Assembly: GCF_015277735.1 (NCBI RefSeq) | Contig: NZ_JADHDA010000003.1 | Span: 62,001 to 126,000, forward strand | Source: Psychrobacter sp. NG254 | Lineage (GTDB): Bacteria; Pseudomonadota; Gammaproteobacteria; Pseudomonadales; Moraxellaceae | Length of the DNA: 64,000 bases | Direction: 5' to 3' | In this document: positions 19,601-64,000 of the stretch, piece by piece | How positions within the stretch are numbered: position 1 is the stretch's first letter | How the letters are laid out: each line of letters opens with the position of its first letter | Translations under genes and position numbers: made by a program | Notes under the pieces: generated by a model | Database searches by the model: none | What the model was told of the DNA's origin: nothing | Seen by the model: only the letters and a program-made list of their open reading frames with translations

Positions 19601-19609
19601 CTAAATATT

Positions 19610-23763: not shown

Positions 23764-23780
23764 TGCACCAAAATAGACAC
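23764..23780. promoter_or_regulatory. Possible NtrC binding site
   Basis: TGCACCAAAATAGACAC keeps a good left half of the NtrC consensus (TGCACCA...TGGTGCA); the right half is poor. About 190 bp upstream of the -24/-12 element, it is at enhancer distance. Confidence 0.35.
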
Positions 23781-23969
23781 TGCATTGCCCCAAGTTGGAT
23801 GTTATTGCTGTTTATAAGGGAGGCTGATGGAGTGTTTTAAACCTGCTGTGTTAATGCTTTATTAGCATAAGCGTCAGGTGTGGCGATGGTTATAGACCCG
23901 CCAGTAAAGGCGCTTGGATAATTAACGAGTGCTGACCTTTATACAGATTTGGCAGCGTACACAAATAAC

Positions 23970-23985
23970 TGGCATAACCATTGCA
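23970..23985 (+). promoter_or_regulatory. Sigma-54 (-24/-12) promoter of the nitrate transporter gene
   Basis: TGGCATAACCATTGCA has TGGCA(T), a 5-base spacer and TTGCA, matching the consensus with one change. It would start transcription near 23997, about 100 bases before the ATG at 24095. Nitrogen-assimilation genes of gamma-proteobacteria commonly use sigma-54 with NtrC. Confidence 0.7.
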
Positions 23986-24094
23986 CCGCCTGAAACATTG
24001 CTACTTATCATATTTGAACACTGCATTTTTTGAACACTTAGTACCTTTAGTACGTTGTCAGAACCCTGAAGTTAATCATTTGAGGAAGTTGCCT

Positions 24095-25603: not shown

Positions 25604-25619
25604 TACGAGGTGAAGACAG

Positions 25620-27809: not shown

Positions 27810-27861
27810 CACGCTGTTTTGCATTCAATGCTGCTCCGCGCGGCTAAGGAATTTTCTGTTT

Positions 27862-29304
27862 ATGTCGCTATCTATGTCGCAAGCCGCCACTACGGTAGAT
27901 ACTCATACCAACAATCACGCCTTAGTACCGGGTCATCAAAAAAACGCTGGCATCGTTATTATCGGGGCGGGCATGGCAGGCAGTCGTTTTGCCATTGAGC
28001 TTGCTCGCACGCAATCAAATGATGACACCGCCCGTTTGCCAATTACGTTAATCAGTAAAGAGCCGCACGTGGGCTATAACCGTATCATGTTATCACCCGT
28101 ACTCTCAGGAGAGTCGGTTTTTGAAGAGACATATTTATACGAGTTAGCAGAATATGAGCAATTGGGTATCACGGTATTGGCTGGCACGTCGGTAGATGCA
28201 ATCGAAACCAATCAGCAGTGTGTCAAATTGAGTGATGGACAAACCCTAGATTATACCGAGCTGGTGCTGGCTACTGGCTCACAAGCTCGCGTCATCCCTT
28301 TTGCCAATCATGATGCTAAGGGGGTTCATGTATTTCGAGATATTGCTGATGTGCAGGTATTGACGGAGTACGCGCTCCAAGAAAAAAAGGGTCTCGTCAT
28401 TGGTGGCGGGGTGTTGGGGCTAGAGGCCGCCTGCGCTTTGGCGTCTCAAGGGGCAGATATGACAGTTGTTCATGTCGATAGTCATGTTCTTAACCGACAG
28501 CTTGATATGCCTGCCGCTCATCTGCTACAAGCAGAGCTCTTGCGTCGAAGTGTCAGACTGGAGGTATCAGCCAACACAGAATGCATTACGGTCAATGATC
28601 AACACGAGGTCAATGGTCTGTTGTTAAAGGATGGCCGCACACTGCCAGCAGACTTTATTGTCATGGCAGTTGGCGTCATCCCCAATATGACACTGGCGCA
28701 GCAAAGTGGTCTTGAGGTTAACCGAGGTATCCTTGTAGATAACTTTATGCATACAAGCTGCCCTCATGTCTATGCGATCGGTGAATGTATAGAGCTAGAT
28801 GGTGAGCTGTTCGGTATGGTAGCCCCTGTCAACCAACAGGTCGATACTTTGGTTTCTGTTTTAAAAGCGCCACGCGTCTCAAGTCGCAAGACAGCCAATA
28901 GTGACTCACAACTAAACAAATCTAAAAACCACTGGCGTCCCTTTATCAGTAAGCCTTTATCTTTAAAATTAAAAGTATCTGGCATCGCGGCTTTTTCAGC
29001 AGGTCAGATCGCTTTTGATGACAGTGAAATGGCACAGATAGAGCGGGTGGTCTATCAGCAAACGAGCCTCAATCATTATCTTTGTCTCTATATTAAAGCA
29101 AGCAAACTTATCGGTACAGTACTATACGGGGATGTGAGCGAAGGGGGGTTTTATAGTCAGCTGATTACTGATGGCAGTGATATATCATCGATGAAAGAAG
29201 ACCTGGTCTTTGGCGAAGCCTATTGCGATTTAGAGAAAATAGAAGCAGCTGAGCCCGAATCCGCCTTGCCAAGTGTCGCAAACCTAATAGGAGAGGCATC
29301 ATGA
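27862..29304 (+). CDS. nasB: FAD-dependent NAD(P)H oxidoreductase, nitrate reductase electron-transfer subunit
   Basis: The frame opens at 27772 inside the previous gene. ATG 27862, with AAGGA 11 bases upstream, gives a sensible N-terminus (481 residues), and a second ATG lies at 27874. It has an FAD Rossmann motif (IVIIGAGMAGSRFAIELA), an NAD motif (LVIGGGVLGLEAACALAS), and the VYAIGECIELDGELFG motif of the NirB-type reductase family. It resembles the N-terminal half of NirB and lacks the siroheme part. Its stop overlaps the nasA start (ATGA), so the two are translationally coupled; it should pass electrons from NADH to NasA. The symbol follows Klebsiella/Bacillus usage and is tentative. Confidence 0.82.
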   Translation: MSLSMSQAATTVDTHTNNHALVPGHQKNAGIVIIGAGMAGSRFAIELARTQSNDDTARLPITLISKEPHVGYNRIMLSPVLSGESVFEETYLYELAEYEQLGITVLAGTSVDAIETNQQCVKLSDGQTLDYTELVLATGSQARVIPFANHDAKGVHVFRDIADVQVLTEYALQEKKGLVIGGGVLGLEAACALASQGADMTVVHVDSHVLNRQLDMPAAHLLQAELLRRSVRLEVSANTECITVNDQHEVNGLLLKDGRTLPADFIVMAVGVIPNMTLAQQSGLEVNRGILVDNFMHTSCPHVYAIGECIELDGELFGMVAPVNQQVDTLVSVLKAPRVSSRKTANSDSQLNKSKNHWRPFISKPLSLKLKVSGIAAFSAGQIAFDDSEMAQIERVVYQQTSLNHYLCLYIKASKLIGTVLYGDVSEGGFYSQLITDGSDISSMKEDLVFGEAYCDLEKIEAAEPESALPSVANLIGEAS

Positions 29305-32300
29305 GCAGCGCCATCTTAAATGACGATCAAGACCTCAGTGTTGTACCGCCCTCTCGCATTACGACTTACACTGAGGATTTGATCAGACCTATTCGTACCA
29401 CTTGTCCTTACTGCGGTGTTGGCTGCGGCGTACTAGCAAACATTGATGAGACAGGGACCATCAGCGTGACTGGTGATCCTGATCATCCAGCAAACTTCGG
29501 TAAACTCTGCTCAAAAGGCAGTGCATTGGCACAAACACTGGGTACTGAGCGCAGGTTAACTCAGCCTTATTATCAAGATAAACAGCGATCGATGGCAAAG
29601 GATCAACCTACCCATACTCAGCCTGCCGAGTGGGAGTCGGTGTTGGACGATATTGCCAGTCGATTGAATAACACCATTGTGGCACACGGGCGTGATAGCG
29701 TGATGTTTTATGTGTCAGGACAGCTGCTTACCGAGGATTATTACGTTGCCAATAAGTTCATTAAAGGCTTTATTGGCAATAATAATATCGATTCCAATTC
29801 ACGTCTATGCATGTCCTCAGCGGTTGCAGGGCATAAGCGTGCTTTTGGTGCAGACTTAGTCCCTAGTAATTATGAAGATTTAGAGTCCTGTGATTTATTG
29901 GTGTTGGTGGGCTCCAATATGGCGTGGTGTCATCCTATTTTATTCGGGCGGTTTTTATCAGCCAAAAAAAGTGATGCCAATAAAAAACTGATTGTGATTG
30001 ATCCGCGTCGTACTGATTCTTGTGAGTTCGCCGATTTGCATTTACCCATTGCTGTTGGCACCGATACTCACTTATATAACGGACTGCTGCATTATCTTGA
30101 GCAAAAAGGCTGTAGTGATAAGGACTATCTTCAGCAGTGTCAGGATGTCACGCCCGCCTTAGAGGCCGCAAAAACGTGGACGATTGATAAAGTGGCGACG
30201 GCATGCGGTATCAGTGAGGATCTTGTACGGGAGTTTTATGAGCTGGTCGCTGCAAACGATAAAACAATCACAGCATTTAGCATGGGCGTCAACCAGTCTG
30301 CGAGTGGTACTGACAAGGTCAATGCTATTATCAATACTCATTTGTATACTGGGCGAGTAGGTAGGGTAGGTGCAAGTCCGTTTTCACTCACTGGTCAGCC
30401 AAATGCGATGGGAGGGCGCGAAGTTGGTGCATTATCTAACCTGCTTGCAGCGCATTTAGATTTAGATAACGAGCAGCATCGTCACTTGGTGGCTGATTTT
30501 TGGCAAGCACCGCAGCCAATTGCTGCAGAGGTTGGGGTAAAAGCTTGTGATGCCGCTGATGCCATACTAGATGGTCGTATAAAAGCCATTTGGATTATGG
30601 CGACCAACCCTGTCGTTAGCTTGCCTGAAGCCGATAAGTTTCGCCGAGCATTGGCTACCTGTGAGTTGGTGATTGTATCTGACTGCTCCGTAGACAGCGA
30701 TACGGTTAAGTGTGCAGATATTGTTTTACCGGCACAGGGTTGGGGGGAGAAATCAGGCACAGTGACCAATTCGGAGCGCCGCATCTCTCGCCAACGGGCG
30801 TTAATGCCCGCGCTCGGGCAAGCAAAGCCTGACTGGTGGATACTGTCGCAAGTCGCTAAACGTATGGGATTAGCAGGTTTTGATTACCACCATCCTAGTG
30901 AGATATTTAATGAACATATTGCCCTAACTGCTTATGGAAATGATACCAGCCAAGATTTATCAGAAACTAATCAACCGCGCTATCTTAATTTAGCAAAAGA
31001 TCTTTCGCTAAGGTCGATAGCATCGATAGAGGTAAAGCCAGACCATCTTGAGCAGCAAGATAAAGATGTATTTTCTTTCAGCCATGATACATATAATGTC
31101 ATGACACCGTTTCAGTGGGGCGGCGCACGTATCGCACCAATAAAAACACGTTTCATTGCCATTACGCCTCCCAGTCACGCCAGCTTACCCAATAGGCATC
31201 CGCAACGATTGAGCTCGAAAAGCACTGATAGTAAAAAAAATGATAGCAGTCATATGTTGCATAAGGATAGCTCAGGGGCATTAAATCTACGGCTTATTAC
31301 AGGTAGGCTTCGCGATCAATGGCACACGATGACGCGCACAGGACTTGCACCGCAGCTCAACCAACACGAATCTGTACCAACGCTCACCGTGCATCCAAAT
31401 GATGCCAAGCAGCTCGGTGTTGACCAAGGCGATTATGTGCAGCTACGTCCTTGCTATGATAAAAGCTATGAGCCAAACTTATCAATACAGAGCCAGCCGC
31501 AGCGCATGGTTGCCAGCAATACAACTACAGACAGTCAGGTGCTCGCACAAGTTGCCATCAGCGACAGTATGAGCGCTGGCGATGCCTTTATGCCGATGCA
31601 TTGGAGCAATGCCTTTGCTCGTTTTGCGCGCGTAGGCACGCTTATTCCAACGGTCGTTGATCCGCATTCAGGACAACCTGAATTGAAAAATTCCGCAATC
31701 AGCGTGATGCCTGTGCCGATGAAAACTTATGGCAAGATTCTGGTGCATCCTGATCTACAAGACACCATTATAGTGCATCTGCGTGAGACCTTATTGAACT
31801 TTGAAAAAGAGTCTGAGGATAAAGGTACGCTGACATCTTCCTCTGATACAAATGCAGCTTCTGAAAGAACAAACTCATTGCCTGCACTGACCTGGAGTTT
31901 AAGTCGTCAAACCAATAGCGTCTTGATTACTTTAGCCAGTCCCATAGATAGCGTCGTCAGTAAATTGCTTGATTCTGATTATTGGCAGCACTTTATCAAC
32001 ACCTATCAAACATCTCTCGCCAATAAACCCATCAATAGCGCCTTTACTGCTAGCAAACAGGGGAGGCAGCTTCGCTTCATCTCGACCCAGCTAAAGGTTG
32101 ATGATACAGCGATAGATTGTACATCGCTTGGCGCATCAGGGTCTGACATACCATGCGATCAGCTACTACTAAGCGTTTGTTTTGCGCCGCAAATTACGCA
32201 ACTGCCCAGTATTCATTGGCTTAACAGTTGCTTTGCTAGTACTGATGCGATACCAGAGAATCAGCGTTATAAGTGGTTACTAGCAGGTCGTCCAGCGACA

Positions 32301-32486
32301 GGTTATATTGATCCAGGTGCATTGGTATGTTCATGTATGGCAGTTGGAGAGAATATTATTATTGAGACGATTACAAAGCAGCAGTGTATGAGTGCCCATG
32401 CGGTCGGAAAGGCATGCCGAGCAGGGACTAACTGCGGTTCATGTGTGAGTCAAATCAATGCCTTGATCGATAGGTATGCGTCTTAA
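29301..32486 (+). CDS. nasA: Assimilatory nitrate reductase catalytic subunit NasA
   Basis: A 1061-residue cytosolic molybdoenzyme reducing nitrate to nitrite. The N-terminal [4Fe-4S] ligands are C35, C38, C42 and C70 (TTCPYCGVGCGV...KLCSKG). Then come the bis-MGD molybdopterin domains (SNSRLCMSSAVAGHKRAFG with the probable Mo-ligand Cys, GVNQSASGTDKVNAI, GQPNAMGGREVG) and the MGD-binding C-terminal domain (ITGRLRDQWHTMTRTG). A BFD-like [2Fe-2S] domain ends the protein (C1010, C1012, C1045, C1048). This layout is that of NADH-linked NasA, longer than periplasmic NapA. It overlaps the FAD subunit gene by four bases. Confidence 0.96.
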   Translation: MSSAILNDDQDLSVVPPSRITTYTEDLIRPIRTTCPYCGVGCGVLANIDETGTISVTGDPDHPANFGKLCSKGSALAQTLGTERRLTQPYYQDKQRSMAKDQPTHTQPAEWESVLDDIASRLNNTIVAHGRDSVMFYVSGQLLTEDYYVANKFIKGFIGNNNIDSNSRLCMSSAVAGHKRAFGADLVPSNYEDLESCDLLVLVGSNMAWCHPILFGRFLSAKKSDANKKLIVIDPRRTDSCEFADLHLPIAVGTDTHLYNGLLHYLEQKGCSDKDYLQQCQDVTPALEAAKTWTIDKVATACGISEDLVREFYELVAANDKTITAFSMGVNQSASGTDKVNAIINTHLYTGRVGRVGASPFSLTGQPNAMGGREVGALSNLLAAHLDLDNEQHRHLVADFWQAPQPIAAEVGVKACDAADAILDGRIKAIWIMATNPVVSLPEADKFRRALATCELVIVSDCSVDSDTVKCADIVLPAQGWGEKSGTVTNSERRISRQRALMPALGQAKPDWWILSQVAKRMGLAGFDYHHPSEIFNEHIALTAYGNDTSQDLSETNQPRYLNLAKDLSLRSIASIEVKPDHLEQQDKDVFSFSHDTYNVMTPFQWGGARIAPIKTRFIAITPPSHASLPNRHPQRLSSKSTDSKKNDSSHMLHKDSSGALNLRLITGRLRDQWHTMTRTGLAPQLNQHESVPTLTVHPNDAKQLGVDQGDYVQLRPCYDKSYEPNLSIQSQPQRMVASNTTTDSQVLAQVAISDSMSAGDAFMPMHWSNAFARFARVGTLIPTVVDPHSGQPELKNSAISVMPVPMKTYGKILVHPDLQDTIIVHLRETLLNFEKESEDKGTLTSSSDTNAASERTNSLPALTWSLSRQTNSVLITLASPIDSVVSKLLDSDYWQHFINTYQTSLANKPINSAFTASKQGRQLRFISTQLKVDDTAIDCTSLGASGSDIPCDQLLLSVCFAPQITQLPSIHWLNSCFASTDAIPENQRYKWLLAGRPATGYIDPGALVCSCMAVGENIIIETITKQQCMSAHAVGKACRAGTNCGSCVSQINALIDRYAS

Positions 32487-49556: not shown

Positions 49557-49627
49557 TTGCTGTAGCTAGATTAAGGTAGTAACGTTTTATAAGAGCTCTT
49601 AGGGTAAATGGATTTGAAACAAAAAAC

Positions 49628-52600
49628 TTAATTCGCAATAGGTAATTTCTCGTCTGTAATCAGCATCATATGCACAAAAAACCGTAGTAGGGGCGTGTAT
49701 TGCCATTTATTCGTCCGTTCTCTATGGTCTTGACTAGCAATACCGATATGGAAAGCATTTTTTGAATCATTAGATTGTTGCCTAATGTCTTGATAGTCAG
49801 TAGATGACATAGTTTTCATCAATAAAGCTTCGTTGCTATTCACCAGCCAATGTTTTAGAGGCAGCAGTTTCTTAGCAATATCAATGAAACGTTGCAACTC
49901 TTTCTCATCTCCTTTTCTAAATGGTAGGTATGCTCTGCTACTAGACAGTTTTTGACTACATATCTCAATAAACCAAGTCCAGTCAGCCTCTGACTTTTCT
50001 CGTAGACGATAGGCATTACTTAACAAAGGTGACAGCAATCTTAAATCACTTTGGTATTGAATGTTCAGTGGACTTAAGACAGTAGTTTCTGAGTCTATGA
50101 GCTTTACAAAACGAGGTTTACCGTGTTTGGTAGTGATAGCGGCAACCTCGCTCGCACGTTCTATTAGAACCTTTGCATCGTCAATGGAAATATTTGCTAA
50201 CTGGGCTGCTTTACTTAAAGGTGTCTTTTTATCATAGGTCTGTAGTAGCAGCTGTACTCGGTTTAGACCATAACGACCAAACAATTCATCAGTGGCTGGC
50301 GTATTGGTACTCAAGAGAAGTTGCTTATCACGGCTTTCAATCGTGAATTTCGGTGACTTGCGTTTGCCTTCTATGATATTTTTAAATAACAGCTTACGTA
50401 TACTAGGCATATTGATCATACCGTTATTAGCATTATCATTGATCTTTCTTTCGCTAATCTTAGTAGATTTGCTAAGGTTAAGTAGTGTGTGTTTAGGCAG
50501 TTTTATATTAGAGACGCTTAACGCATAAGTAGCCATCAGAGTAGCAAAGTGATTGTAATACTCAAAGCTACGCTCAGGCGATAAGTGCCCCATAATACCT
50601 GATAGAGCGTACCAGCGATCTTGTGCATCTGTAGGCTCTCCGAGTAGGCCTTCTTTTATACGCAGTACGTCGCTTTCGTCATAATCGGTGAGAGCTTCTA
50701 CGAGATCCAAATGGCCTACTAGCGCTAAAGATAGGTTGCTCACTGCCGTATGCCTAAACCCATGAAAGGTATGCTCTGCTACATTATCATCTACCGATAT
50801 ATCTTTTAAGACTCGTTTGAGTAACTGCAACGGAACATGGTCATCAATAGGGCGCTGATCTGATGATAAGGTAAAGATAAATTTGTTTGAACTGTCGCCA
50901 ATATTACTCTGCACAAAGTTAATAAAAAAATTCAGCTCATTAGGTTTGAGGAGGGCAAATAAGGGAACGCGGCGAACGCTACTCTGAGTCTTAGTTGGAC
51001 GATAGCTATTGGGCCTTATTACCACTGATGGTACAGCTGTTTTTAAGCCTTCGATGTCATTATACTTAAGTCCCAACAGTTCTTTTTTGCGCATGCCAGT
51101 ACGATAGACTAAGATAAATAGAAGCGCGAACATCTCCTGCTCCAATATATCTACAGAACCCAGTATCTGCGTAATAATGGCGTGATATGCTTGCGGTGAT
51201 ATCAGCTCCGCACGTACACGTCGGCCATTTTTGGACTGTTGGAAGTTCACGGAGGGTAGGTTGTATTTGCTCTTGGCAAAGTTGTGCATACTCTTCAATA
51301 AATTGGCAGAGTATCCAATGTCAGTATTGTTCCGTACGACAGCTTTGTACTCTAAAATATCTTCATAAAGTTCCTCAAACTCTTCCTCTGACCAAATATC
51401 AAGCGGCTGAGCCGTTGTGAAATACAACCACTCATAGCCTATGGTTCTAATATATTTCAAAATAGACTCATTACTAAGTGATTTTGACTCTTTTCGATTG
51501 AGTAAACTTAGCACCCAATCTAATAAAATTTTTTCACTTAAGTCATCGTATTGCTCATAGCGTTTTTGTACTCTTTCGATAAGGGTATACGTCGTTTGAC
51601 TGAGTTTTTTCTTCTTCTGTTTTTTATCCATTTTGAAGTCTTTAGTCAGATTCATAATTAAATCAGACTTTCTAACCTCTATCTTTTTGGTAGAACTACT
51701 ACTAGATGTCTCGCTTTGATTAACAGAGTTTTTGCTGATAGACAGCGTTAAAATATGTTCTAGATCATACGGCTCCTCTTTATACTGATATTTTTGGTTC
51801 AAAAACCGACCAAAGTCCTGCGTGCTCAGTCCAGCCGTGTTATGCATACCTCGCAGCACCCCAACTGAAGCATGATCAATATCAGCGCCCTCCAGCTCCT
51901 CCCAGTAATAACTGGCGTAATATAAAAACCTTGAAAAGGGAAGTGGCTTAATACCCAAAGGCTTGATTACGTCAGATAAAGCCACGGTCAAATATTGTTT
52001 TATCTTATCTTCTGACAGCTTGGCAATGATAGGTGTGGTCTCTGCTTGACTGCTGCTTTTATGGTAATGCATCAGCCAACACTGACTGACCATATCTACA
52101 ACGATTTGCTTGGTGTTATAAAGCTGGTCACTTTCTTCTTCTCGCTCGTTACCAAAGCGCTTTTGCACAAAACGCGGTGAGATTACTATCCTTTCTTTGA
52201 TGAATGGCTGATACTCTTTGGTGAGCAATGAGATAAGCCACCCTTGAAGCATTTGTACCTCGTTGATGCCACCATATACAATTCCTGAGAATATCAGCCA
52301 GCCTATAATCTGATCTTGGCTATAATCGGCTGTTTGCTCCCAATTATGCTCTACTGCGCGAATAATTTTGATCAGTGCTTTACCGTCTTTTAACCAAGCT
52401 GTATTTATAATTAGTGGATTGATTTTAGTAGGTTGTGGCGAAATTATCTTAGGATAGTGATGCTCAGCAAGCATATAGTGCTTATTTTGATAGTCAACGA
52501 ACTTAACGACGATTTGCCAGACATGTTTGAGTGTTCTAGATGACTCGTAAGCTTTTGCAATTTTGCTTTCAATGATTGACTGAAACTCATCAAATCCCTC

Positions 52601-52966
52601 TTGAGACAATGGTTTCAATTGCTTATAAAGCGCTCCCTGAAACTGGCTTAAAGATTGACTCCAAGATAGCCATGACAAATCAAAATAATCGCTAGAGCTT
52701 GGCAAAAATGAAAAGATGCGCTCATCGGGCCAAAGCGCTTGTTGGTAATATTTATCAAAAGACTTTATGAATCCGATACTTCCAGGATGAATCCTTTTCA
52801 ACGACTCCCATTCGGTTTGTAAATCGGAGAGTAGGTGTATCTCACGTGTCCTTACCGTGTCACTGTCTTTGAGTATAGATGGGTAAGGCACGTAGCGCTT
52901 TTTTCTACCATCAAACTTTGCTAAGTCATCAATAATTTTTGGCAGCTGTATTTCATTTATTAGCAT
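49628..52966 (-). CDS. Very large tyrosine site-specific recombinase (1112 aa)
   Basis: The frame is open from 53146, but GAGG lies 7 bases before ATG 52966, giving a 14-bp overlap with the upstream gene, so that start is used. Residues ~560-830 hold an integrase catalytic domain with the full set: R626 (YRTGMRKKELLG), H735 and R738 (HGFRHTA), H794 (IMGHLSPERS) and the nucleophile Y803 (FEYYNHF). The ~550 residues before it and ~300 after have no recognised domain; integrases are usually 300-450 residues. It is the last gene of a minus-strand module with a second recombinase and a repeat protein. This layout resembles Gamma-Mobile-Trio elements (GmtZ-like), an assignment from memory. Confidence 0.8.
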   Translation of the reverse strand: MLINEIQLPKIIDDLAKFDGRKKRYVPYPSILKDSDTVRTREIHLLSDLQTEWESLKRIHPGSIGFIKSFDKYYQQALWPDERIFSFLPSSSDYFDLSWLSWSQSLSQFQGALYKQLKPLSQEGFDEFQSIIESKIAKAYESSRTLKHVWQIVVKFVDYQNKHYMLAEHHYPKIISPQPTKINPLIINTAWLKDGKALIKIIRAVEHNWEQTADYSQDQIIGWLIFSGIVYGGINEVQMLQGWLISLLTKEYQPFIKERIVISPRFVQKRFGNEREEESDQLYNTKQIVVDMVSQCWLMHYHKSSSQAETTPIIAKLSEDKIKQYLTVALSDVIKPLGIKPLPFSRFLYYASYYWEELEGADIDHASVGVLRGMHNTAGLSTQDFGRFLNQKYQYKEEPYDLEHILTLSISKNSVNQSETSSSSSTKKIEVRKSDLIMNLTKDFKMDKKQKKKKLSQTTYTLIERVQKRYEQYDDLSEKILLDWVLSLLNRKESKSLSNESILKYIRTIGYEWLYFTTAQPLDIWSEEEFEELYEDILEYKAVVRNNTDIGYSANLLKSMHNFAKSKYNLPSVNFQQSKNGRRVRAELISPQAYHAIITQILGSVDILEQEMFALLFILVYRTGMRKKELLGLKYNDIEGLKTAVPSVVIRPNSYRPTKTQSSVRRVPLFALLKPNELNFFINFVQSNIGDSSNKFIFTLSSDQRPIDDHVPLQLLKRVLKDISVDDNVAEHTFHGFRHTAVSNLSLALVGHLDLVEALTDYDESDVLRIKEGLLGEPTDAQDRWYALSGIMGHLSPERSFEYYNHFATLMATYALSVSNIKLPKHTLLNLSKSTKISERKINDNANNGMINMPSIRKLLFKNIIEGKRKSPKFTIESRDKQLLLSTNTPATDELFGRYGLNRVQLLLQTYDKKTPLSKAAQLANISIDDAKVLIERASEVAAITTKHGKPRFVKLIDSETTVLSPLNIQYQSDLRLLSPLLSNAYRLREKSEADWTWFIEICSQKLSSSRAYLPFRKGDEKELQRFIDIAKKLLPLKHWLVNSNEALLMKTMSSTDYQDIRQQSNDSKNAFHIGIASQDHRERTNKWQYTPLLRFFVHMMLITDEKLPIAN

Positions 52967-54392
52967 GGTCAACCTCTGCAGTGTTTGTGCCAACATGATT
53001 TGAATTAGGGTAATGGTTGATTGTGATATCTGATAACCCAAGCTGTGCTGCGATCTGTTCAAACACGGACGCCACACGCTTAATATCTGCTTTACTACTT
53101 GATGAGAAGCGCCCCAATACTTCTTGACGAGCTTTCTCATGACCAATAACCGTGTTAATCAGCGATAAGGAAACGCCAAGCTTTTCAAGCTGCGTACGAA
53201 CAAAGTGGCGTGTCCAGTAGGGATTGGCGTCAATGATGTGCTTGGTCATATGATAAGCATCGCCACGCTTAATGTCTTTAAGAGTAGGGGAGTTAGCAGT
53301 AGGAGCTCGCTCATAAAACAGCTTTAATAGTGCTTCATCATTACCTAAACGGATATTATCAATGATAGCGCTGACTTCATGATGACCTTGGTGTTTTGCC
53401 TGATAATTAATCAAATACGCTCTATAGTCTGTTAGATGGCGTATAAGTGTAGGGCATAGTGGAATGAGACGATCACTCTTAACTTTCTTAACTGGCTTGT
53501 CATTGATGAGCAGCCAACCCATATCAAGATCGATATCGTACATCTTGCCAAGACCATTATTTGGTCGCACGCCCGTTAAAAGGCAAAAGACAAACCATAC
53601 AAAAATACTGGTTCTATTAAAGTGCTCCTCATCGTTTGAACTTTGATCAGTCCAGTACTTTATCTCATTTACGATGTCGCAAACTGTTTCAATCTTTAGC
53701 GAAAACCTTGACCCTACTGTATATTTGCGCCAAGCGGTGATATAAGTCAGGTCAAAATTGCTATTGCTATTAAATATGTTCAGTGCTGATTTATAGTGAG
53801 CCATAAGTGCTTCGCTAGTGTGGCTACTATAGTACATTGCAGGAGCATGGGACGCAGGCGTGCGACAGATGATATCGGCGATATGTGCATGACAATCAGG
53901 TGTATAACGAGAGAGCACGACATGTAGTGCAGTCTCTATACGATTGACGGACAGGTACGGCAATCCAAGGCTGCTACGTAAGGTGGCAAGATAAGCCGTA
54001 AAATCTTCTTTTAATGGCAACTCGCAAGCAAATAAATCATCTATCAGCCACACCGGCAGTGGAACTTTGATGGTATCAGAAGTATTTTCATAATCATTTT
54101 CGAGCAATGTTTGGCTTGTGGACTTTTCGGTAATACCTAAGCTGTGTTCGATGTAATACTTTTTACCTTTAATTTTGAAAATATCAGGATGACCGATATA
54201 GCCGGGTATTAGTAAGGATTTAACTGGCAGTCCAGTAATCATAGATAACAGTAAAATACCCGCACAGGTTTTATCAGTCTCTGTTTCTGGTAAGGTGCTG
54301 GCGTCTTGGTTGAGCGCAGCAAATAACGCTTGATAGCCGGCAAGGGAGAGTAAGCGCGTGTTAGAGTTAAGCGCAAGATTGCGCTGAGACAT
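52953..54392 (-). CDS. Tyrosine-recombinase-like protein lacking the catalytic tyrosine
   Basis: A 479-residue protein whose C-terminal half matches the integrase fold: R276 (LLTGVRPNNGLG), a basic strand KKVKSDRLIPL, H396 and R399 (WTRHFVRTQLEKLG) and H418 (VIGHEKARQEVLGRFSSS). The tyrosine expected nine residues after H418 is replaced by Gly (427), with Phe at 429, so strand cleavage is unlikely. It may act as a non-catalytic partner of the large recombinase, whose gene overlaps it by 14 bp. In tripartite elements such a recombinase partner is conserved (GmtY-like, tentative). It follows the repeat-protein gene by 6 bp. Confidence 0.72.
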   Translation of the reverse strand: MSQRNLALNSNTRLLSLAGYQALFAALNQDASTLPETETDKTCAGILLLSMITGLPVKSLLIPGYIGHPDIFKIKGKKYYIEHSLGITEKSTSQTLLENDYENTSDTIKVPLPVWLIDDLFACELPLKEDFTAYLATLRSSLGLPYLSVNRIETALHVVLSRYTPDCHAHIADIICRTPASHAPAMYYSSHTSEALMAHYKSALNIFNSNSNFDLTYITAWRKYTVGSRFSLKIETVCDIVNEIKYWTDQSSNDEEHFNRTSIFVWFVFCLLTGVRPNNGLGKMYDIDLDMGWLLINDKPVKKVKSDRLIPLCPTLIRHLTDYRAYLINYQAKHQGHHEVSAIIDNIRLGNDEALLKLFYERAPTANSPTLKDIKRGDAYHMTKHIIDANPYWTRHFVRTQLEKLGVSLSLINTVIGHEKARQEVLGRFSSSSKADIKRVASVFEQIAAQLGLSDITINHYPNSNHVGTNTAEVDHANK

Positions 54393-54398
54393 GTAGTT

Positions 54399-55568
54399 TT
54401 ACTGTAGTGATAAATCTATAGTTTGGAGCGGTATAGAGTGTTTGATTAACGGGTCTGGATATTCGCCATAGCTGACATAGGGTGCTTCATAGTGGTCAAT
54501 ACGCTCTTCAAAGCTGGTGGTTAACCCTTCATGGCTTTCAGTATTAGCATCTAAAAATGCAAGATCTATGGCGATATCGCTGTGTTCTATATCATCACGT
54601 GTGTAACCCCATGCATTATTGCTGAGTGTAGTAGTGTTCCAGTTGTGACTCGTTGCAGTAGAGTCTAAGGGCAATCTCGATGTGTTATCTGCTAAGTTGA
54701 TAGCTGTAATTTTAATATGTTTAGGGGGTTTCTTATACTTGGGTTTAGGCTTGCGTAACGTATGCGCATTTTTGTAGGCGGTCGTTATTTTTTCTATTTG
54801 GCTCAGTTTATCTTTTGCCACTTTCTTTTCTTCGGCATGAGTAGCTTGCTTATCATTTAACAATTCATATGCACTTTTTTGCTGCTCTAATAGAACAGTG
54901 AAAATGGTGTATATGCTTTCCACATTCATGGTCATTTGAGGTAGATCGGGTAGTTCACGCCAAATCCATGTTCGTCTGGAAGATCCTGAAAACTGAGCCT
55001 GTTTGAATTGCATCAGTATATTTTTGGTTTGCTGTTTTGGCCAGTGCTGCGTCAGCAGTACGCTTGTGTGCATTGCTATGGCTAGCCAAATTAACCGTTT
55101 CTGTAGGTAGTCATGCTGATGTTCATTGATAGAATGTTGCATGAGAATGAGCAATTGCATGATGAGTGGTTTTTTTGCTAATTCTGATCTACTAATAGTC
55201 ATAGAAAGCTGAGGGACTGGCCTTCTTTGTAATACCTGTAATATTAATCTTAGTAGATTTTGGGGATTATCATCTGGTTGGCTATAGCTATTGTGTACTG
55301 CTAAAGTGATCTCAGATATGGCAGTCGATACCGCTTCTGGATATATAAAATTTTGGTCATTATCAATTTTTTTAATAATTTCTGTTAATGCTTTCAGATT
55401 AAGCCCACGCTCTTCATGATTATTCTCAGTATTCTCAGTATTCTCAGTATTCTCAGTATTCTCAGTATTCTCAGTATTCTCAGTATTCTCAGTATTCTCA
55501 GTATTCTCAGTATTCTCAGTATTCTCAGTATTCTCAGTGTTCTCAGTATTCTCAGCATTCTCAGTCAT
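54399..55568 (-). CDS. Module protein with N-terminal Glu-Asn-Thr tandem repeat
   Basis: A 389-residue protein. Residues ~3-49 are an EN(T) tripeptide repeated 16 times, encoded by a 9-bp DNA repeat; because the unit is a multiple of three, changes in copy number keep the frame. After this come helical, Leu/Gln-rich segments and a basic stretch (LRKPKPKYKKPPKHIKI, near 275-292). No known domain is recognised. It overlaps the upstream small gene by four bases (ATGA) and ends 6 bp before the recombinase-like gene, so it is part of one operon. By position it would be the third partner (GmtX-like) of the element, which is inferred. Confidence 0.7.
   Translation of the reverse strand: MTENAENTENTENTENTENTENTENTENTENTENTENTENTENTENTENNHEERGLNLKALTEIIKKIDNDQNFIYPEAVSTAISEITLAVHNSYSQPDDNPQNLLRLILQVLQRRPVPQLSMTISRSELAKKPLIMQLLILMQHSINEHQHDYLQKRLIWLAIAMHTSVLLTQHWPKQQTKNILMQFKQAQFSGSSRRTWIWRELPDLPQMTMNVESIYTIFTVLLEQQKSAYELLNDKQATHAEEKKVAKDKLSQIEKITTAYKNAHTLRKPKPKYKKPPKHIKITAINLADNTSRLPLDSTATSHNWNTTTLSNNAWGYTRDDIEHSDIAIDLAFLDANTESHEGLTTSFEERIDHYEAPYVSYGEYPDPLIKHSIPLQTIDLSLQ
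55423..55564 (-). repeat. 9-bp tandem repeat, 16 units, within a gene
   Basis: On the plus strand the unit TTCTCAGTA recurs every 9 bases from 55423, with TTCTCAG present at 16 steps up to 55558. Two units carry a base change (one silent, one giving Ala). It encodes the Glu-Asn-Thr repeats at the start of the 389-residue module protein. Confidence 0.95.
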
Positions 55569-55888
55569 AAAACACCCTCAGAAGGTCGCTTGTAATAAGT
55601 TTGTTCATTTATCTTTATAAGCCGACAAAATGTAGTAATAGCAAAAATATTTTTGCCAAATAATTTTTGATTTATTTCTTGATCCAAGACCTCGTTTAGC
55701 TGCGTGTAAATGAGCTTGATATCTATTTTTTTATTGTATTTTGCGATAAGACCAATAAGCTCGTAAAAACTGATGTCAAAATTAAACTGATTCTTTGATA
55801 TATATTTCACGGCTACTTCTTTTCTTAATACATCAAAATCAATATAAGGGCTTTTTGCTATATGAAATAGCTCAAAGTTATTGAGCAA
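55565..55888 (-). CDS. Small protein of the recombinase module (107 aa)
   Basis: A 107-residue protein (LNNFELFHIAKSPYIDFDVL...), rich in Ile, Lys and Phe and probably helical, starting at TTG 55888. A strong AGGAGG lies 12 bases upstream, inside the end of the preceding frame. Its stop overlaps the ATG of the repeat protein (ATGA), so they are translationally coupled. It is in the same phase as the 90-residue frame upstream, separated from it only by a TAG and one codon, so the two might be one gene cut by a nonsense change. No family recognised. Confidence 0.5.
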   Translation of the reverse strand: MLNNFELFHIAKSPYIDFDVLRKEVAVKYISKNQFNFDISFYELIGLIAKYNKKIDIKLIYTQLNEVLDQEINQKLFGKNIFAITTFCRLIKINEQTYYKRPSEGVL

Positions 55889-55891
55889 GAA

Positions 55892-56164
55892 CTACTTTTC
55901 CTCCTCTTTTATAAAGCAGGTAAGTTTTGAGCAAGCATTACTTTGCTCAAGTTCGATAGCCTGGCTATTCAGAAGTGGTCTGATATGGCAGGTATAAATA
56001 TCAAACAGACTAATGATTTTTGGATATACAAGCACGTTGAGTGTTTGTAGCTTAGCGATCGATAGTGATTTCATATCTTTCCCACTAAGATATCGAGTTG
56101 ATGACTTGGTCGTTATATCCCGTGTATTGACCTCCACTAATAATTTACGAGTATTAGCAAACAA
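55892..56164 (-). CDS. Small ORF upstream in the module, possibly a fragment (90 aa)
   Basis: A frame of 90 residues from TTG 56164 (FANTRKLLVEVNTRDITTKSS...) ending at TAG. The frame is open for about 30 more codons upstream without an ATG, with sensible protein-like sequence (LSFCLKTSQIGFQLF), which suggests a 5'-truncated gene. No ribosome site supports the TTG. Two cysteines lie near the end (NACSKLTCF). Function not recognised. Confidence 0.35.
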   Translation of the reverse strand: MFANTRKLLVEVNTRDITTKSSTRYLSGKDMKSLSIAKLQTLNVLVYPKIISLFDIYTCHIRPLLNSQAIELEQSNACSKLTCFIKEEEK

Positions 56165-58788: not shown

Positions 58789-60336
58789 ATGCCCGACAGT
58801 ACCGCTAGCCATATTACCCAAATCAATCAAGACGATATCAATAAAGCCGTATGGAACGCCTGCGATACCTTTCGCGGGGTCATCAGCGCCGATACCTATA
58901 AAGACTTTATCTTGACCATGCTATTTTTAAAGTATTTATCTGATGTTTACCGCGATGAGTACAACAAGCTGGTCGAGCAGTTTGGCGGTTCTGGTAACGA
59001 GAATCCAGAACTGATCCATGCCATGATGTCCAAGCAGCGTTTTGTTTTGCCTAAGGGCGCAAGCTTTTGGGATCTATATGAGCAGCGTCATCAGCCGGGC
59101 AATGGTCAACGTATTGACGAGGCGCTACACGCGATTGAAGAAGCCAACGGTACTAAGCTCAAAAACGTTTTCCAAGATATCAGCTTTAATACTGATAAAC
59201 TCGGTCAAGAAAAGCAAAAGAACGAGCTACTCCGCCACTTGTTAGAAGATTTTGGCAAAGACATCCTTAATCTAAGCGTTGAGCGTGTTGGTAGCCTCGA
59301 TGTGATTGGTAATGCGTATGAGTTCTTAATCAAGCATTTTGCTGCTAGTAGTGGGGCGACGGCTGGCGAGTTCTATACGCCGCCTGAAGTGTCCAATTTG
59401 CTAGCGACTATCCTTGAGCCTGTTGAGGGCGATCAAATCTGTGACCCTGCGTGTGGTTCGGGTTCGCTACTCATCAAGTGCGGGGCTATGGTACGCAAAA
59501 ACTCAAATTCCAAGAAGTATGCGCTATACGGTCAAGAAGCCATTGGCTCGACATGGGCACTGGCCAAGATGAATATGTTCCTACACGGTGAGGACAACCA
59601 CCGTATCGAGTGGGGCGATACCATCCGTAATCCGCTGCTACTCGATAAGGACGGCAAGCACTTATTACAGTTCGATGTGGTGACTGCCAATCCGCCGTTT
59701 TCACTGGATAAATGGGGTCATGAAGATGCCAGCAGCGATCCCTATGGTCGCTTCCATCGCGGTGTACCGCCCAAGACCAAGGGCGACTATGCCTTTATCA
59801 GTCATATGATTGAAACGCTTAAGAACGACACTGGTCGTATGGGTGTGGTCGTACCGCATGGCGTGCTATTCCGTAGCTCTAGTGAAGGCAAAATCCGTCA
59901 GCAGCTCATCGAAGAAAACCTGCTCGACACGGTGATTGGTTTACCCGAAAAGCTGTTCTTTGGGACAGGGATTCCTGCTGCTATTTTGCTGTTTAAAAAG
60001 AATAAAACCGATGACACGGTGTTATTCATCGATGCTAGCAATGAGTTCAAGTCAGGTAAAAATCAAAACCAGCTCACTGAAGATAATATTAATAAAATCA
60101 TTGAGACGTATAAGGCGCGGGAAAGCGTCGATAAATACGCTTACCTTGCAACCTTCGATGAGATAGCCGAAAACGACTTTAACCTAAACATTCCGCGCTA
60201 TGTCGATACCTTTGAAGAAGAGGCGGAGATTGATTTGGATGCGGTGCGTGCTGAGCGTCTTGAATTAAAGGCTGAATTCGATGCACTAGAAACTGAGATG
60301 ACAGGGTTTTTAAAGGAGCTGGGTTATGGTGCCTAA
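58789..60336 (+). CDS. hsdM: Type I restriction-modification methyltransferase subunit HsdM
   Basis: A 515-residue N6-adenine methyltransferase subunit. The N-terminal HsdM domain (about 14-160) is followed by the catalytic domain with EFYTPPEV (194-201), SAM motif I DPACGSGSLL (219-228), and the catalytic motif IV NPPF (301-304). A C-terminal coiled-coil-like stretch (AVRAERLELKAEFDALETEM) follows. It modifies host DNA at the site set by HsdS. AAGGAA lies before the ATG. It overlaps hsdS by 11 bp, so the two are co-translated. Normal length. Confidence 0.97.
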   Translation: MPDSTASHITQINQDDINKAVWNACDTFRGVISADTYKDFILTMLFLKYLSDVYRDEYNKLVEQFGGSGNENPELIHAMMSKQRFVLPKGASFWDLYEQRHQPGNGQRIDEALHAIEEANGTKLKNVFQDISFNTDKLGQEKQKNELLRHLLEDFGKDILNLSVERVGSLDVIGNAYEFLIKHFAASSGATAGEFYTPPEVSNLLATILEPVEGDQICDPACGSGSLLIKCGAMVRKNSNSKKYALYGQEAIGSTWALAKMNMFLHGEDNHRIEWGDTIRNPLLLDKDGKHLLQFDVVTANPPFSLDKWGHEDASSDPYGRFHRGVPPKTKGDYAFISHMIETLKNDTGRMGVVVPHGVLFRSSSEGKIRQQLIEENLLDTVIGLPEKLFFGTGIPAAILLFKKNKTDDTVLFIDASNEFKSGKNQNQLTEDNINKIIETYKARESVDKYAYLATFDEIAENDFNLNIPRYVDTFEEEAEIDLDAVRAERLELKAEFDALETEMTGFLKELGYGA

Positions 60337-61588
60337 TGGGTGGGAGGTAAAAAAGCTAGAGGATGTTGTATCTAAGACGAGAAAAATAACATACGGAATA
60401 GTTGTGCCAGGTCCTTATGAACCTAACGGGAATTTAATGATTCGTGCGAAAGACTATTCTTTTGGATGGCAGCCTATAGAGAGCATCTATCGTGTTTCCG
60501 ACAAAATGCACCAGTCTTATAAAAGATCTCAAGTTCGAAAAGGAGATGTACTACTAACTATAGTTGGTAGTATTGGAAATACAGCTATAGTGCCTGAAGA
60601 TTTAGAAGGTGCAAATATAACGCAACAGACAGCTAGACTCTCTTTTGATGAACACGATGCTAATTTTTTCTACTCGGTAATGAGCTCAGAAACTGGTAAA
60701 AAAGAAATTTATCGTTATGCAAAATCTGGTGTACAACCTTCTTTAAATTTGGCTGATATTGCTAAATTCAAAGTACCAGTTCCACCCTTTCCAGAGCAAC
60801 AAAAAATCGCCAAAATTTTATCGACTTGGGATAAAGCGATTAGCATCACCGAGCGTTTAATTGACAATAGTACCCAGCAGAAAAAAGCCTTAATGCAGCA
60901 ACTTCTGACGGGTAAAAAGCGGTTGCTTGATGAGTCGGGCAAATGGTTTGAGGGTGAGTGGGAAGTGGTAAAATTGCAGTCTGTTCTAGATCTAATGAGA
61001 AGTGGACTTTCACGTAAATTAGAAAACGATAATGTAGGGATTGCTGTAATTAGATCAAATAATATGGGTTCAAAATACACTAGTAACGTAGATTTAAAAT
61101 ATTGGTATTTAGATGATCCTCAAGGTGCCAATGTATCTAACTACATACTTGATGATGGCGATCTTTTAGTAAACTTTATCAACAGTTTAAGTCAAATTGG
61201 TAAAGCTTGTATATACAGAAAAAATCTAGACGTAGATGCGATTTACACTACAAACATTTTACGTATTAAACCCAATACTGATAAAGTTGATCCTATCTAC
61301 CTATATCTGCTTACTCAAACTGCTAATTATGATTCATACATTACTTCAATCACCAAACCTGCTGTCAATCAGGCAAGCTTTACTACTAAAGAGTTTGGGA
61401 ATCTAGAATTTAATTTACCACCACTCAAAGAACAACAAAAAATCGCCACCGTGTTAACCAATGCCGATAAAGAAATCGAGTTGCTTGAGCAGCAATTGGC
61501 TGATTTGCAGCAAGAAAAAAAAGCGTTGATGCAAGTGTTGTTAACGGGTAAGAAGCGGGTAGTGGTTGATGGGGATAATTTAGCATGA
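60326..61588 (+). CDS. hsdS: Type I restriction-modification specificity subunit HsdS
   Basis: A 420-residue DNA-recognition subunit with two target recognition domains (about 1-155 and 208-365). Each is followed by a conserved helix region: PPFPEQQKIAKILSTWDKAI with LMQQLLTGKKR (ending 199), and PPLKEQQKIATVLTNADKEI with LMQVLLTGKKR (ending 411). These near-identical tails are typical sites of domain exchange by recombination. It overlaps hsdM by 11 bp and the next gene by 4 bp. The tail is related to a fossil at 6726-6872. Confidence 0.96.
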   Translation: MVPNGWEVKKLEDVVSKTRKITYGIVVPGPYEPNGNLMIRAKDYSFGWQPIESIYRVSDKMHQSYKRSQVRKGDVLLTIVGSIGNTAIVPEDLEGANITQQTARLSFDEHDANFFYSVMSSETGKKEIYRYAKSGVQPSLNLADIAKFKVPVPPFPEQQKIAKILSTWDKAISITERLIDNSTQQKKALMQQLLTGKKRLLDESGKWFEGEWEVVKLQSVLDLMRSGLSRKLENDNVGIAVIRSNNMGSKYTSNVDLKYWYLDDPQGANVSNYILDDGDLLVNFINSLSQIGKACIYRKNLDVDAIYTTNILRIKPNTDKVDPIYLYLLTQTANYDSYITSITKPAVNQASFTTKEFGNLEFNLPPLKEQQKIATVLTNADKEIELLEQQLADLQQEKKALMQVLLTGKKRVVVDGDNLA

Positions 61589-62715
61589 TTCGAACGTTCC
61601 ATCCTGTTGGACAAGGTGCTTTCTATTCAGAACGCCATATCAACTTTAATATTGTGTATGACTGTGGAACCACTTCTCCAAGGAGGGCAAGACGTGTAGT
61701 TGAAAAAGCATTTAAAGATGAAGTAGTAGACATTCTTTTTATATCACATTTTGACAGCGACCATATTTCATCCATACCTGATTTAAAAAAATCAGTAAAA
61801 CAGATCAGAATTGTTGTTCTACCACTATTAAACAACCAACAAAAGAATTTGTTATTAAACTTCTATAACGAGTTCTCAGCAGATTTAAAAAGTATAATTA
61901 ATAACCCTGAATCTTATTTTGGCTCTAATACTACTGTCATTAGAGTTCTACCAGCAGCTGTTGCTTACGACATAGAAAGACGGTTTGAACCTCTTGACTT
62001 AAGAGAGCTAATAAATAACGATCCAAACGAATCAATTGAAATTGAAAGTGGCACTCCTTTAACTATTCCATGTACTGTTAACGGGCAAACAATAAAATGG
62101 GCTTTTATTCCTTATAATTATGAAGATAAAGTACGCAGGATTGTGATAGATAGAGAGCTAAATAAAGCAGGAATTAGTACTAGTATATTGATGAGTAATC
62201 CGAACTATGCTCTTAGCAATTTGGAAGACCTTGTCATTCGCAAGCAAAAGACAATGCATACCATCTACGATAAATTAAAAGGAAAAATTAATCAGAATTC
62301 TATGTTGTTGTATTCTGGTCCAGATTTACCTAATGATCTGAACGACTGTAAACCTTATCATACCTGTCATTATAGAAGCTTCTCCTCTAATTTAAACTAT
62401 TACCATACTTGTCTTTGTATGTCTGGTTGTATATATACAGGTGATAGCGACTTCAAATGTTTTAAATTGAAAGATATCTATAAAGGGTATGTCAATAATG
62501 TCGATATCGTTCAAGTACCTCATCATGGGTCAAAGCACAATTTCGATTTGCAAGCACTTGAAGGTTTCAGTAACGCGATTTGTCCCATTTCTCATAGCAC
62601 TAATAATCGTGATAAACATCCTCATGCAGAAGTTGTGAAGAAACTAACTATAAACGGCTTTCATGTCATTTCCGTTAATGAGAATAGAAATTCTGAATTT
62701 AGACAATTTATTTAG
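61585..62715 (+). CDS. Metallo-beta-lactamase-fold hydrolase inside the type I RM operon
   Basis: A 376-residue protein. It begins FHPVGQGAFYSE and FNIVYDCGT, like ComEC-type MBL domains. The metal motif is ISHFDSDHISS (H55, D57, D59, H60; the common form is HxHxDH, and SHFDxDH is a known variant). Later come IYTGDSDF (metal-bridging Asp) and VQVPHHGSKHN. The insert between 150 and 290 includes a Cys/His-rich stretch (CKPYHTCHY...YYHTCLCMSGC) that could bind a further metal. Its ATG overlaps the hsdS stop (ATGA), so it is translated together with hsdS; hsdR follows 146 bp later. The nuclease or phosphodiesterase activity suggested by the fold is unproven. A defence role is inferred from context. 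Confidence 0.85.
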   Translation: MIRTFHPVGQGAFYSERHINFNIVYDCGTTSPRRARRVVEKAFKDEVVDILFISHFDSDHISSIPDLKKSVKQIRIVVLPLLNNQQKNLLLNFYNEFSADLKSIINNPESYFGSNTTVIRVLPAAVAYDIERRFEPLDLRELINNDPNESIEIESGTPLTIPCTVNGQTIKWAFIPYNYEDKVRRIVIDRELNKAGISTSILMSNPNYALSNLEDLVIRKQKTMHTIYDKLKGKINQNSMLLYSGPDLPNDLNDCKPYHTCHYRSFSSNLNYYHTCLCMSGCIYTGDSDFKCFKLKDIYKGYVNNVDIVQVPHHGSKHNFDLQALEGFSNAICPISHSTNNRDKHPHAEVVKKLTINGFHVISVNENRNSEFRQFI

Positions 62716-62861
62716 TTGGTCACTCTACTTGTCTAGTGGAGTAACAAGAGATCTGCCCAAAATTGCTTGCTCTGAAGATAAACAAGCAGATACAGCGTAG
62801 TATTAGATTTGCTACTCTGATGACACAATATTAAATACTCAATTGCTTACCCTATTACTCA

Positions 62862-64000
62862 ATGAGTTCGGCTATGAATATTAACTCCAGCATCAACTTT
62901 GCAGAAGAGTTCAGCTCAAAAATCCCTGCTTTAACTTTACTCACCACGCTGGGCTACGAATTTATTCCACCCAGTCAATGCAATGCCATGCGCTCAAAAA
63001 CAGTGTCTAATAAAGCCACTAATCAAGTGGTGCTATTGCCAATCATGCGTGCATTTTTAGCCGAGCAAACTTTTACGTTTGAAGGTAAGGCGCATCATTT
63101 ATCAGACAGTGCTATTGATAAAATCATGCACGAGCTAAATCCTGCCATGAACTTAGGGATGCAGGCTGCAAATGAAGCGCTATATAACGCCATGCTGTAT
63201 GGCGTGACCGTAACAGAGTTTATCGACGGCAAAAAAACTTCCCAAACTATCGCTCTGATAGATTGGAATAATATCGATAATAATAGCTTTCACGTTACTG
63301 AAGAGTTGGTCGTGCTCAATAGCGAGGGTACGAGTAGTCGTAGGCCTGATATCGTCTGCTTTGTAAATGGGCTGCCGCTAGCAGTGATCGAAGCCAAACG
63401 CCCTGACTCCAGTAGAGAGTGGCAATCGACCAATGCTCAAGCAGTGTCCCAGCATATTCGCAATCAAAAGCCGAAAGAAATCCCGCATCTATTTGCCTAT
63501 AGCCAGTTATTACTGGCGGTCAATGGTAATGATGGGTTGTATGCCACCTGCGGTACGCCTGAGAAGTTTTGGGCAAAATGGGTCGAAGAAGAGATCTCTG
63601 AGCCTGAGTTTCATCGTTTAAAGAACCAAGCGCTCAGGCCTAAGCAAATTGAGAATTTGTTTGCTCATCGTCCTACCTCTATCAAAGGTGAATATAAATC
63701 ATTGATTGCTGGCGGTGATCTAGCCGTCACCGACCAAGACCGCTTAATCATCAGTCTTTTGCAGCCCCAGCGTCTGCTTGAGATGACGCGCATGTTTACT
63801 TTGTTTGATAAAAAGGCTGGCAAAATTGTTGCTCGTTATCAGCAAGTCTTTGGTATCAAAGCCTTGATTGAACGTATCAGCACTTTTGACGGCTCTGATG
63901 GTAAGTCGGGTAGTCGGCAAGGCGGTGTCATTTGGCATACCACAGGTAGTGGTAAGTCCTTTACGATGGTTTTCTTCTCCAAAGCACTTATTTGGTTAGA
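62862..64000 (+). CDS. hsdR: Type I restriction endonuclease subunit HsdR, N-terminal part
   Basis: A reading frame starts at ATG 62862 (or ATG 62874) and continues open to the window end, about 379 residues seen. The N-terminal PD-(D/E)xK nuclease domain is visible: RRPDIVCFVNGLPLAVIEAKRP gives D163, E177 and K179. The start of the helicase/translocase domain follows with Walker A TTGSGKS (360-366). HsdR proteins are about 1000 residues, so roughly 60% lies beyond the window. No strong ribosome site is seen at either start. It cuts unmodified DNA together with HsdM and HsdS. Confidence 0.92.
   Translation, partial: MSSAMNINSSINFAEEFSSKIPALTLLTTLGYEFIPPSQCNAMRSKTVSNKATNQVVLLPIMRAFLAEQTFTFEGKAHHLSDSAIDKIMHELNPAMNLGMQAANEALYNAMLYGVTVTEFIDGKKTSQTIALIDWNNIDNNSFHVTEELVVLNSEGTSSRRPDIVCFVNGLPLAVIEAKRPDSSREWQSTNAQAVSQHIRNQKPKEIPHLFAYSQLLLAVNGNDGLYATCGTPEKFWAKWVEEEISEPEFHRLKNQALRPKQIENLFAHRPTSIKGEYKSLIAGGDLAVTDQDRLIISLLQPQRLLEMTRMFTLFDKKAGKIVARYQQVFGIKALIERISTFDGSDGKSGSRQGGVIWHTTGSGKSFTMVFFSKALIWL

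Follow-up and report, generated by a model that had tools for sequence, protein, structure and literature searches.

A putative recombination module of three proteins at one end of defence islands in Psychrobacter

A 64,000-nt stretch of a contig of Psychrobacter sp. NG254, called the window here, carries on its minus strand three tightly packed genes that we name, in the order of transcription, F2 (small), F0 (middle) and F1 (large). On balance we lean slightly towards the view that the F2, F0 and F1 proteins form a site-specific recombination module that marks one end of defence islands, in which an integrase beside a tRNA gene would insert the island and the trio would recombine its distal end. 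What chiefly leads us to place the trio, and not the integrase, at work on the distal end is that this boundary varies among relatives while the tRNA end stays constant. All coordinates are those of the window, and window-equivalent positions above 64,000 lie beyond it on the same contig (Table 1).

The packing is as the initial annotation had it: at the same coordinates in the ORF list, adjacent open reading frames (ORFs) overlap by 14 bp, are spaced by 6 bp and overlap by 4 bp, from F1 onwards. The 389- and 479-amino-acid (aa) ORFs share one frame with a single stop between them and together match, end to end, an uninterrupted 844-aa gene of P. fozii (L032), whose F1 is 94% identical to that of the window; the 107- and 90-aa ORFs likewise share one frame, are separated by a single in-frame stop and correspond to one 199-aa gene in the same relative. 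Since each pair lies in one frame, is parted by one stop and is a single gene in L032, these ORFs are not independent genes, and the window locus is an F2-F0-F1 trio in which F1 is intact while F0 and F2 are each broken by one in-frame stop. The annotation had counted a recombinase-like partner without tyrosine and a third protein with repeats as separate genes; the tyrosine-less recombinase fold does lie in F0 and the TEN repeats do exist, at the F0 N terminus, but the 479- and 389-aa ORFs are the two halves of F0. The repeat tract is missing from L043 and reduced in L032; its length thus varies while the frame is kept. In relatives the operon consists of F2 (~170–205 aa), F0 (~750–845 aa) and F1 (~1045–1150 aa).

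F1, described at the outset as an active-looking recombinase of 1112 residues, indeed combines an integrase domain with the R-K-H-R-H-Y set of tyrosine recombinases. It matches PF00589 (Pfam, E = 7e-9), the integrase family phrog_1 (1.2e-17) and the solved structures 3nkh (9e-7) and 4a8e (2.6e-5), and R626, K659, H735, R738, H794 and Y804, which we take to be catalytic from the superfamily motif, are invariant in a 38-sequence alignment. F0 gave no match to the PDB by sequence. Its R641, K664, H761 and H783 are invariant in a 37-sequence alignment, in which 33 sequences, including the homologue from L125, have no tyrosine at alignment positions 784–800. The L125 protein is uninterrupted (844 aa), and in its predicted structure the C-terminal region matches an archaeal Xer recombinase (Z 16.4, 170 residues, root-mean-square deviation (rmsd) 2.1) and also other recombinases, so that the C-terminal half of F0 is, in the model, a tyrosine-recombinase fold without the usual tyrosine. 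F2 looks ParB-like: in the model of the L116 homologue (pLDDT 94) the top 18 structural matches by Z are all ParB, KorB, Noc, Spo0J or sulfiredoxin, while a Pfam scan of 16 F2 proteins returned only isolated weak matches (E 0.044 or worse).

The window copy itself is probably inactive, because F0 and F2 each carry an in-frame stop, unless F0 can function in two pieces and a second trio supplies F2. Projected onto the intact protein, the F0 stop lies at residue 363, in a low-confidence stretch of the model before the C-terminal domain and adjoining a possible restart ATG; two-piece function of F0 is therefore conceivable. The F2 stop corresponds to residue 61 of a 169-aa homologue, within the folded domain of the model. 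A second trio of the same genome (G000, C13:435700-438696, locus L060; 38% identity) has all three genes uninterrupted; upstream of it lies an operon whose large ORF matches HerA/mad8 models.

The trio is widespread among relatives. F1 found a match at E ≤ 0.001 in 73 of 105 Psychrobacter genomes, the weakest of which may be generic recombinases. A single scan of contigs retained 80 of 116 relatives, which belong to Psychrobacter, Acinetobacter and Denitrificimonas apart from one gammaproteobacterial metagenome-assembled genome. F1 is immediately preceded by F0 in 74 of the 80 loci, and an F2-family match, counted as presence anywhere in the locus, occurs in 59. We fetched 19 close copies, the window included, with at least 70% F1 identity, and all three genes are uninterrupted in 15 of them. 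P. fozii CECT 5889 is one strain with an unbroken trio. Outside this set are fragmentary matches at the same identity level (G061:C24, G049:C53, G004:C11, G042:C104, G079:C6:55733, G060:C43, G023:C14:36714 and G069:C23:3553), several of which carry stops. A plasmid search returned 259 records, all below 60% identity and none reaching 80% query coverage; distant sets at 20–25% identity occur on Acinetobacter and Vibrio plasmids, one of them from Vibrio cyclitrophicus, with a recombinase-fold ORF before F1. One of these distant trios, on an Acinetobacter johnsonii plasmid (L074), sits beside hsdR, an IS5 element and another site-specific integrase. A literature search in which we recognised no paper on the F2-F0-F1 trio is a weak negative, subscription literature being outside its scope.

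Anti-phage genes accompany close copies of the trio with high frequency. Upstream of F2 we found restriction-modification (RM) families in 8 of the 19 close copies, CRISPR type I-F genes or arrays in five and type I-C genes or arrays in four, 17 of 19 in total; the count covers up to ~9 kb upstream of F2 (2.4 kb in L048), and only representatives were confirmed by PADLOC or TRF, the remaining assignments being made by clustering. Confirmed representatives are HsdM and HsdS of the window, Cas7f (L049, outside the 19), Cas6f (L038), Cas7c (L045) and Cas1c (L037), and arrays of types I-F and I-C, respectively, lie upstream of the trios at L038:3654-8365 and L039:14409-19990, with the types taken from the repeat and the neighbouring cas families. 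F0 is split in L038. As a control, the same families were found in 2 of 20 GST-anchored loci without a close full-length trio (L210 and L222); L209, where only the SprT gene that follows hsdR is present, was not counted, and the control covers these families only, in stretches of 8–20 kb, among them four loci without a tRNA-Val match and one genome (G004) with an F1 remnant. The type I RM operon that the annotation had placed about 2.6 kb from the trio is where it was said to be, and cargo, one of the two roles suggested for it, agrees with the recurrence of such operons in trio islands.

Judging from tRNA copies on either side, the window trio and RM operon lie within a 56-kb tRNA-Val island. 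A complete tRNA-Val(GAC) is found at window-equivalent 75589-75665, and a truncated copy on the other side of the trio is 99% identical to the corresponding part of it. The gene after this second copy directly follows tRNA-Val in G018, and therefore 56 kb, including the trio and the RM operon, are extra relative to that genome, although G018 has a further tRNA-Val remnant downstream and is not a pristine empty site. G099, G094 and G069 also have parts of the window's RM block in the interval from tRNA-Val to the trio. On the F1 side, the long stretch of similarity to the window stops within 20 bp of the F1 stop codon in G064, G099, G094, G069 and G015, with short scattered matches beyond it in G094, and the 19 close copies have 13 kinds of right-hand neighbour after F1 (our own grouping), one of them an insertion sequence. 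The comparison of related genomes that had been suggested for locating the ends thus gave the far end at the tRNA-Val copy and a limit on the F1 side, but not the cargo-side end.

The subfamily of the second trio presents a similar arrangement at another tRNA. G013 and G018 agree, with 95% identity over 2.5 kb, up to the anticodon loop of tRNA-Gly(GCC), past which G018 keeps the whole tRNA and G013 runs into a trio island, whose far end, 71 kb off, has a complete tRNA-Gly and a repeat of 111 alignment columns. At both tRNA sites the repeats, of 111–113 nt, begin in the anticodon arm. The F1-side junction is common to G013, G041 and G021 and is thus kept in three of six islands, while in G000, G029 and G099 about 14 nt of tRNA-Gly remnant are left, fused to other DNA. 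We had considered whether, at these last junctions, the island had inserted into genes such as LysR and CitE, which the G048/G015 allele did not support; later deletion beside tRNA-Gly would be the simpler account. The tRNA-Gly core was absent from the three other copies searched, at 33–41% identity (L055, L062, L065). What the tRNA-Gly junctions show is an island at a tRNA whose distal end is occupied by the trio; they do not tell which enzyme made it.

Several observations weigh against the trio as the mover. One is the canonical integrase of ~400 aa. All 13 tRNA-Val trio islands that were checked have it next to the tRNA, at 88–100% identity (88–98% in the 12 loci besides the window contig), and as a homologue of ~414 aa it occurs in all four tRNA-Gly islands with the far end in the examined sequence (G000, G029, G013, G099), 57–60% identical to the tRNA-Val one and at a distance of ~1 kb from the complete tRNA-Gly; G041 and G021 have a homologue outside the tRNA-Gly remnant. 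An earlier count, with the integrase in just four relatives, was rejected, as those stretches ended short of the tRNA and longer ones show it throughout. Because the integrase stands beside the tRNA in every island examined to its tRNA end, our confidence in the trio as mover is lowered, and the tRNA-Gly junctions, for the same reason (4 of 4), could equally be the integrase's work; we therefore dropped them as evidence of the trio's own activity. It is accordingly possible, if unlikely, that the integrase alone moves these islands and the trio is conserved cargo or a distal accessory. The repeats starting in the anticodon arm are what a tRNA integrase would leave, the enzyme matches phrog_1 strongly (2.7e-60), and trio-less loci with tRNA-Val repeats exist (L211, L205). 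However, the whole active site of F1 is kept in 38 of 38 aligned sequences, and the DNA after F1 is mostly not a tRNA-Val copy among the close copies, a remnant being seen a few kb past F1 only in G094, G093 and G004. None of 48 distant trios has such an integrase within the ~20 kb examined. In the trio-less control it was present in 2 of 20 loci (L209 and L210), with one fragment (L211).

Further points on the same side are that the cargo-side end of the trio was not found and that no pair of occupied and empty sites isolates the trio alone. That end was not located by searching the window for a second copy of the F1-side motif, by searching six genomes for CATAA-N6-TTATG-NGAAMAGTCGG, or by looking for an inverted end upstream of F2, and the window flank with MFS and SDR genes, tried as an empty-site probe and abandoned, returned mostly MFS paralogues at 67–69% identity. 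An inverted F1-side end motif does occur in Psychrobacter sp. TAE2020 (L124:17883-17909), 4.5 kb past F1, where the neighbouring ORF resembles a serine recombinase by eye. At the protein level, four of the 37 F0 sequences have a tyrosine at alignment position 794, and the match of F2 to ParB is moderate (best Z 6.5 over 88 residues, rmsd 3.4; best Foldseek E 0.15). Finally, the shared tRNA-Val location permits spread by homologous exchange, and 4 of the 19 close copies have a broken gene. Together with the fragments outside the set, and with the position of most close copies 10–30 kb from a GST anchor where one is on the same contig, this would suit accretion at a hotspot, in which the trio is a fossil and homologous recombination at conserved flanking sequences has spread it. 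We consider such an origin quite improbable, given the 15 uninterrupted copies, the intact active site of F1 and the distant sets on Acinetobacter and Vibrio plasmids.

We thus return to a recombination module at the distal end, whose working we infer as follows. F1 would be the catalytic tyrosine recombinase, F0, of the same fold and lacking the nucleophile, its architectural DNA-binding partner, and the ParB-like F2 an accessory DNA binder, probably with a part in assembling or orienting the complex. The two island ends differ in the window subfamily and its tRNA-Gly sister, with the ~400-aa integrase at the rebuilt tRNA, the trio at the distal end with the 3' side of F1 facing outward, and type I RM or CRISPR-Cas cargo between the two modules. 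The integrase would handle insertion into the tRNA, and the trio would recombine the distal end, either moving its own element or exchanging the DNA beyond F1. The genes and their breaks, the active-site residues, the modelled F0 fold, the recurrent cargo, the limits of the islands and the placing of both modules are observations, whereas all steps of the trio's reaction are inferred. A bolder version, which we offer tentatively and think rather unlikely as it stands, is a two-engine island: the integrase anchors it at the anticodon arm of the tRNA, and the trio, with F2 as a ParB-like clamp, opens and reseals the distal end, swapping RM and CRISPR-Cas cargo and outer neighbours without re-integration.

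Mahata et al. are said to have described, in 2024, Gamma-Mobile-Trio (GMT) islands with GmtX, GmtY and GmtZ, and the annotation had likened the window genes to such elements. By sequence the trio is not a GMT. Neither the window ORFs nor 19 F0 sequences matched the NCBIfam models for GmtY (NF040693, cut-off 340 bits), GmtZ (NF047926, 600 bits) and GmtX (NF040692, 40 bits) at E ≤ 1. As positive control, a genuine locus of the family in G216 scored 508.9, 765.1 and 210.9 bits, respectively (E 1.5e-62 to 6.7e-230). GmtX did not match the F2 halves, and F2 profiles were blank against the control GmtX. Profile comparisons with the Gmt proteins gave at most 2%, in a test insensitive enough that F1 against the 400-aa integrase, of the same superfamily, reached only 19.7%, and the Gmt search of the own genome is weak, as no control genome gave a match. 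Order and sizes differ as well: the control reads Y441-Z908-X200, while here the order is small, tyrosine-less, large catalytic, and F1 has 1112 aa against 441 aa for GmtY. Membership in the GMT family is thus highly improbable. What stands of the comparison is the logic: a tyrosine-recombinase set of three proteins, two of recombinase type and a third of ~200 aa, placed at one end of islands with anti-phage systems (for GMT, partly after PMC12039261). As to mobile islands, defence cargo is found in 17 of 19 close copies, the integrase is also present, and trio-driven mobility is putative. The annotation would have read a lack of Gmt similarity together with identical gene order in all relatives as a fixed chromosomal locus; the similarity is indeed lacking, but the gene order is not identical.

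Other recombinase operons offer partial parallels. GInt islands (ginABCD), as described in PMC5385486, reach 70 kb or more and have a recombinase operon at one end, one member with an incomplete active site, a small protein on the side of the cargo and RM among the cargo, all as here. However, they have four genes with three recombinases, against three genes and two recombinase-fold proteins in the trio, and their operon reads from the end into the cargo, whereas the trio reads toward the end; trio islands, unlike GInts, also have an extra integrase at the other end (a comparison by description). Strand-biased circularizing (SE) elements (intA-tfp-intB-srap), according to PMC10214605, share a recombinase-fold protein without catalytic residues, Tfp, and a small essential helper, but they have four genes with two catalytic recombinases, and Srap is described as having a coiled coil where F2 is modelled as ParB-like. 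Profiles of F1, F0 and F2 gave no hmmsearch match to the four SE proteins of pAQU1 and at most 7% in hhalign, an insensitive comparison with single-sequence templates. Tn554 (TnpA, TnpB, TnpC) and RIT elements, compared by description only, also encode several recombinases together, Tn554 with the small helper TnpC, while RIT elements have three recombinases.

The remaining features are collected in Table 1. In the RM block, the MBL-fold gene has weak similarity to LmuA (PADLOC, 4e-14) and may be an embedded defence gene; beside the operon, a 614-aa ORF at window-equivalent 67157-69001 (L070:3158-5002) matches NsnA (5.3e-15) and HEC-05 (5.6e-14) in PADLOC. Elsewhere in the 56-kb island, at 20853-32486, large ORFs resemble a nitrate assimilation cluster by eye only.

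Table 1. Features of the trio locus and its island in Psychrobacter sp. NG254 (window coordinates)
Feature	Position	Strand	Remarks
F1 (large ORF)	49628-52966	minus	1112 aa from internal ATG; 1172 aa from upstream TTG
479-aa ORF (half of F0)	52953-54392	minus	ORF list
389-aa ORF (half of F0)	54399-55568	minus	ORF list
107-aa ORF (half of F2)	55565-55888	minus	ORF list
90-aa ORF (half of F2)	55892-56164	minus	ORF list
F0, full extent	52953-55568	minus	predicted tyrosine-recombinase-fold partner without catalytic tyrosine; one in-frame stop
In-frame stop codon in F0	54399-54401	minus	sequence; frame and homology
F2, full extent	55565-56074	minus	169-aa form; a 199-aa form would begin at TTG 56164
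In-frame stop codon in F2	55892-55894	minus	sequence
9-bp tandem repeat	55421-55565	minus	16.1 copies, 97% match; codes TEN repeats at the F0 N terminus
Putative F1-side boundary	49586-49606	minus	long similarity among close copies stops at this point; alignment by eye with CATAA-N6-TTATG of relatives; candidate only
Truncated tRNA-Val(GAC) copy, far end of island	19547-19659	minus	113 nt, anticodon arm through terminator
400-aa canonical integrase	window-equivalent 73542-74744 (L070:9543-10745)		beside tRNA-Val
Type I RM cargo block	58789-64000	plus	Pfam, PADLOC, ORFs
hsdM	58789-60336	plus	
hsdS	60326-61588	plus	
MBL-fold gene	61585-62715	plus	between hsdS and hsdR
hsdR	62862 to 66197, past window end	plus	named by operon position

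If our reading of the trio is correct, Psychrobacter defence islands would use a recombination module that has no sequence relation to the Gamma-Mobile-Trio and whose counterpart at the other end is a tRNA integrase. The DNA between the two modules would then be a place to seek unknown defence systems, and with such a pair it could be tested which of the engines does the moving and which the reshaping of the island.

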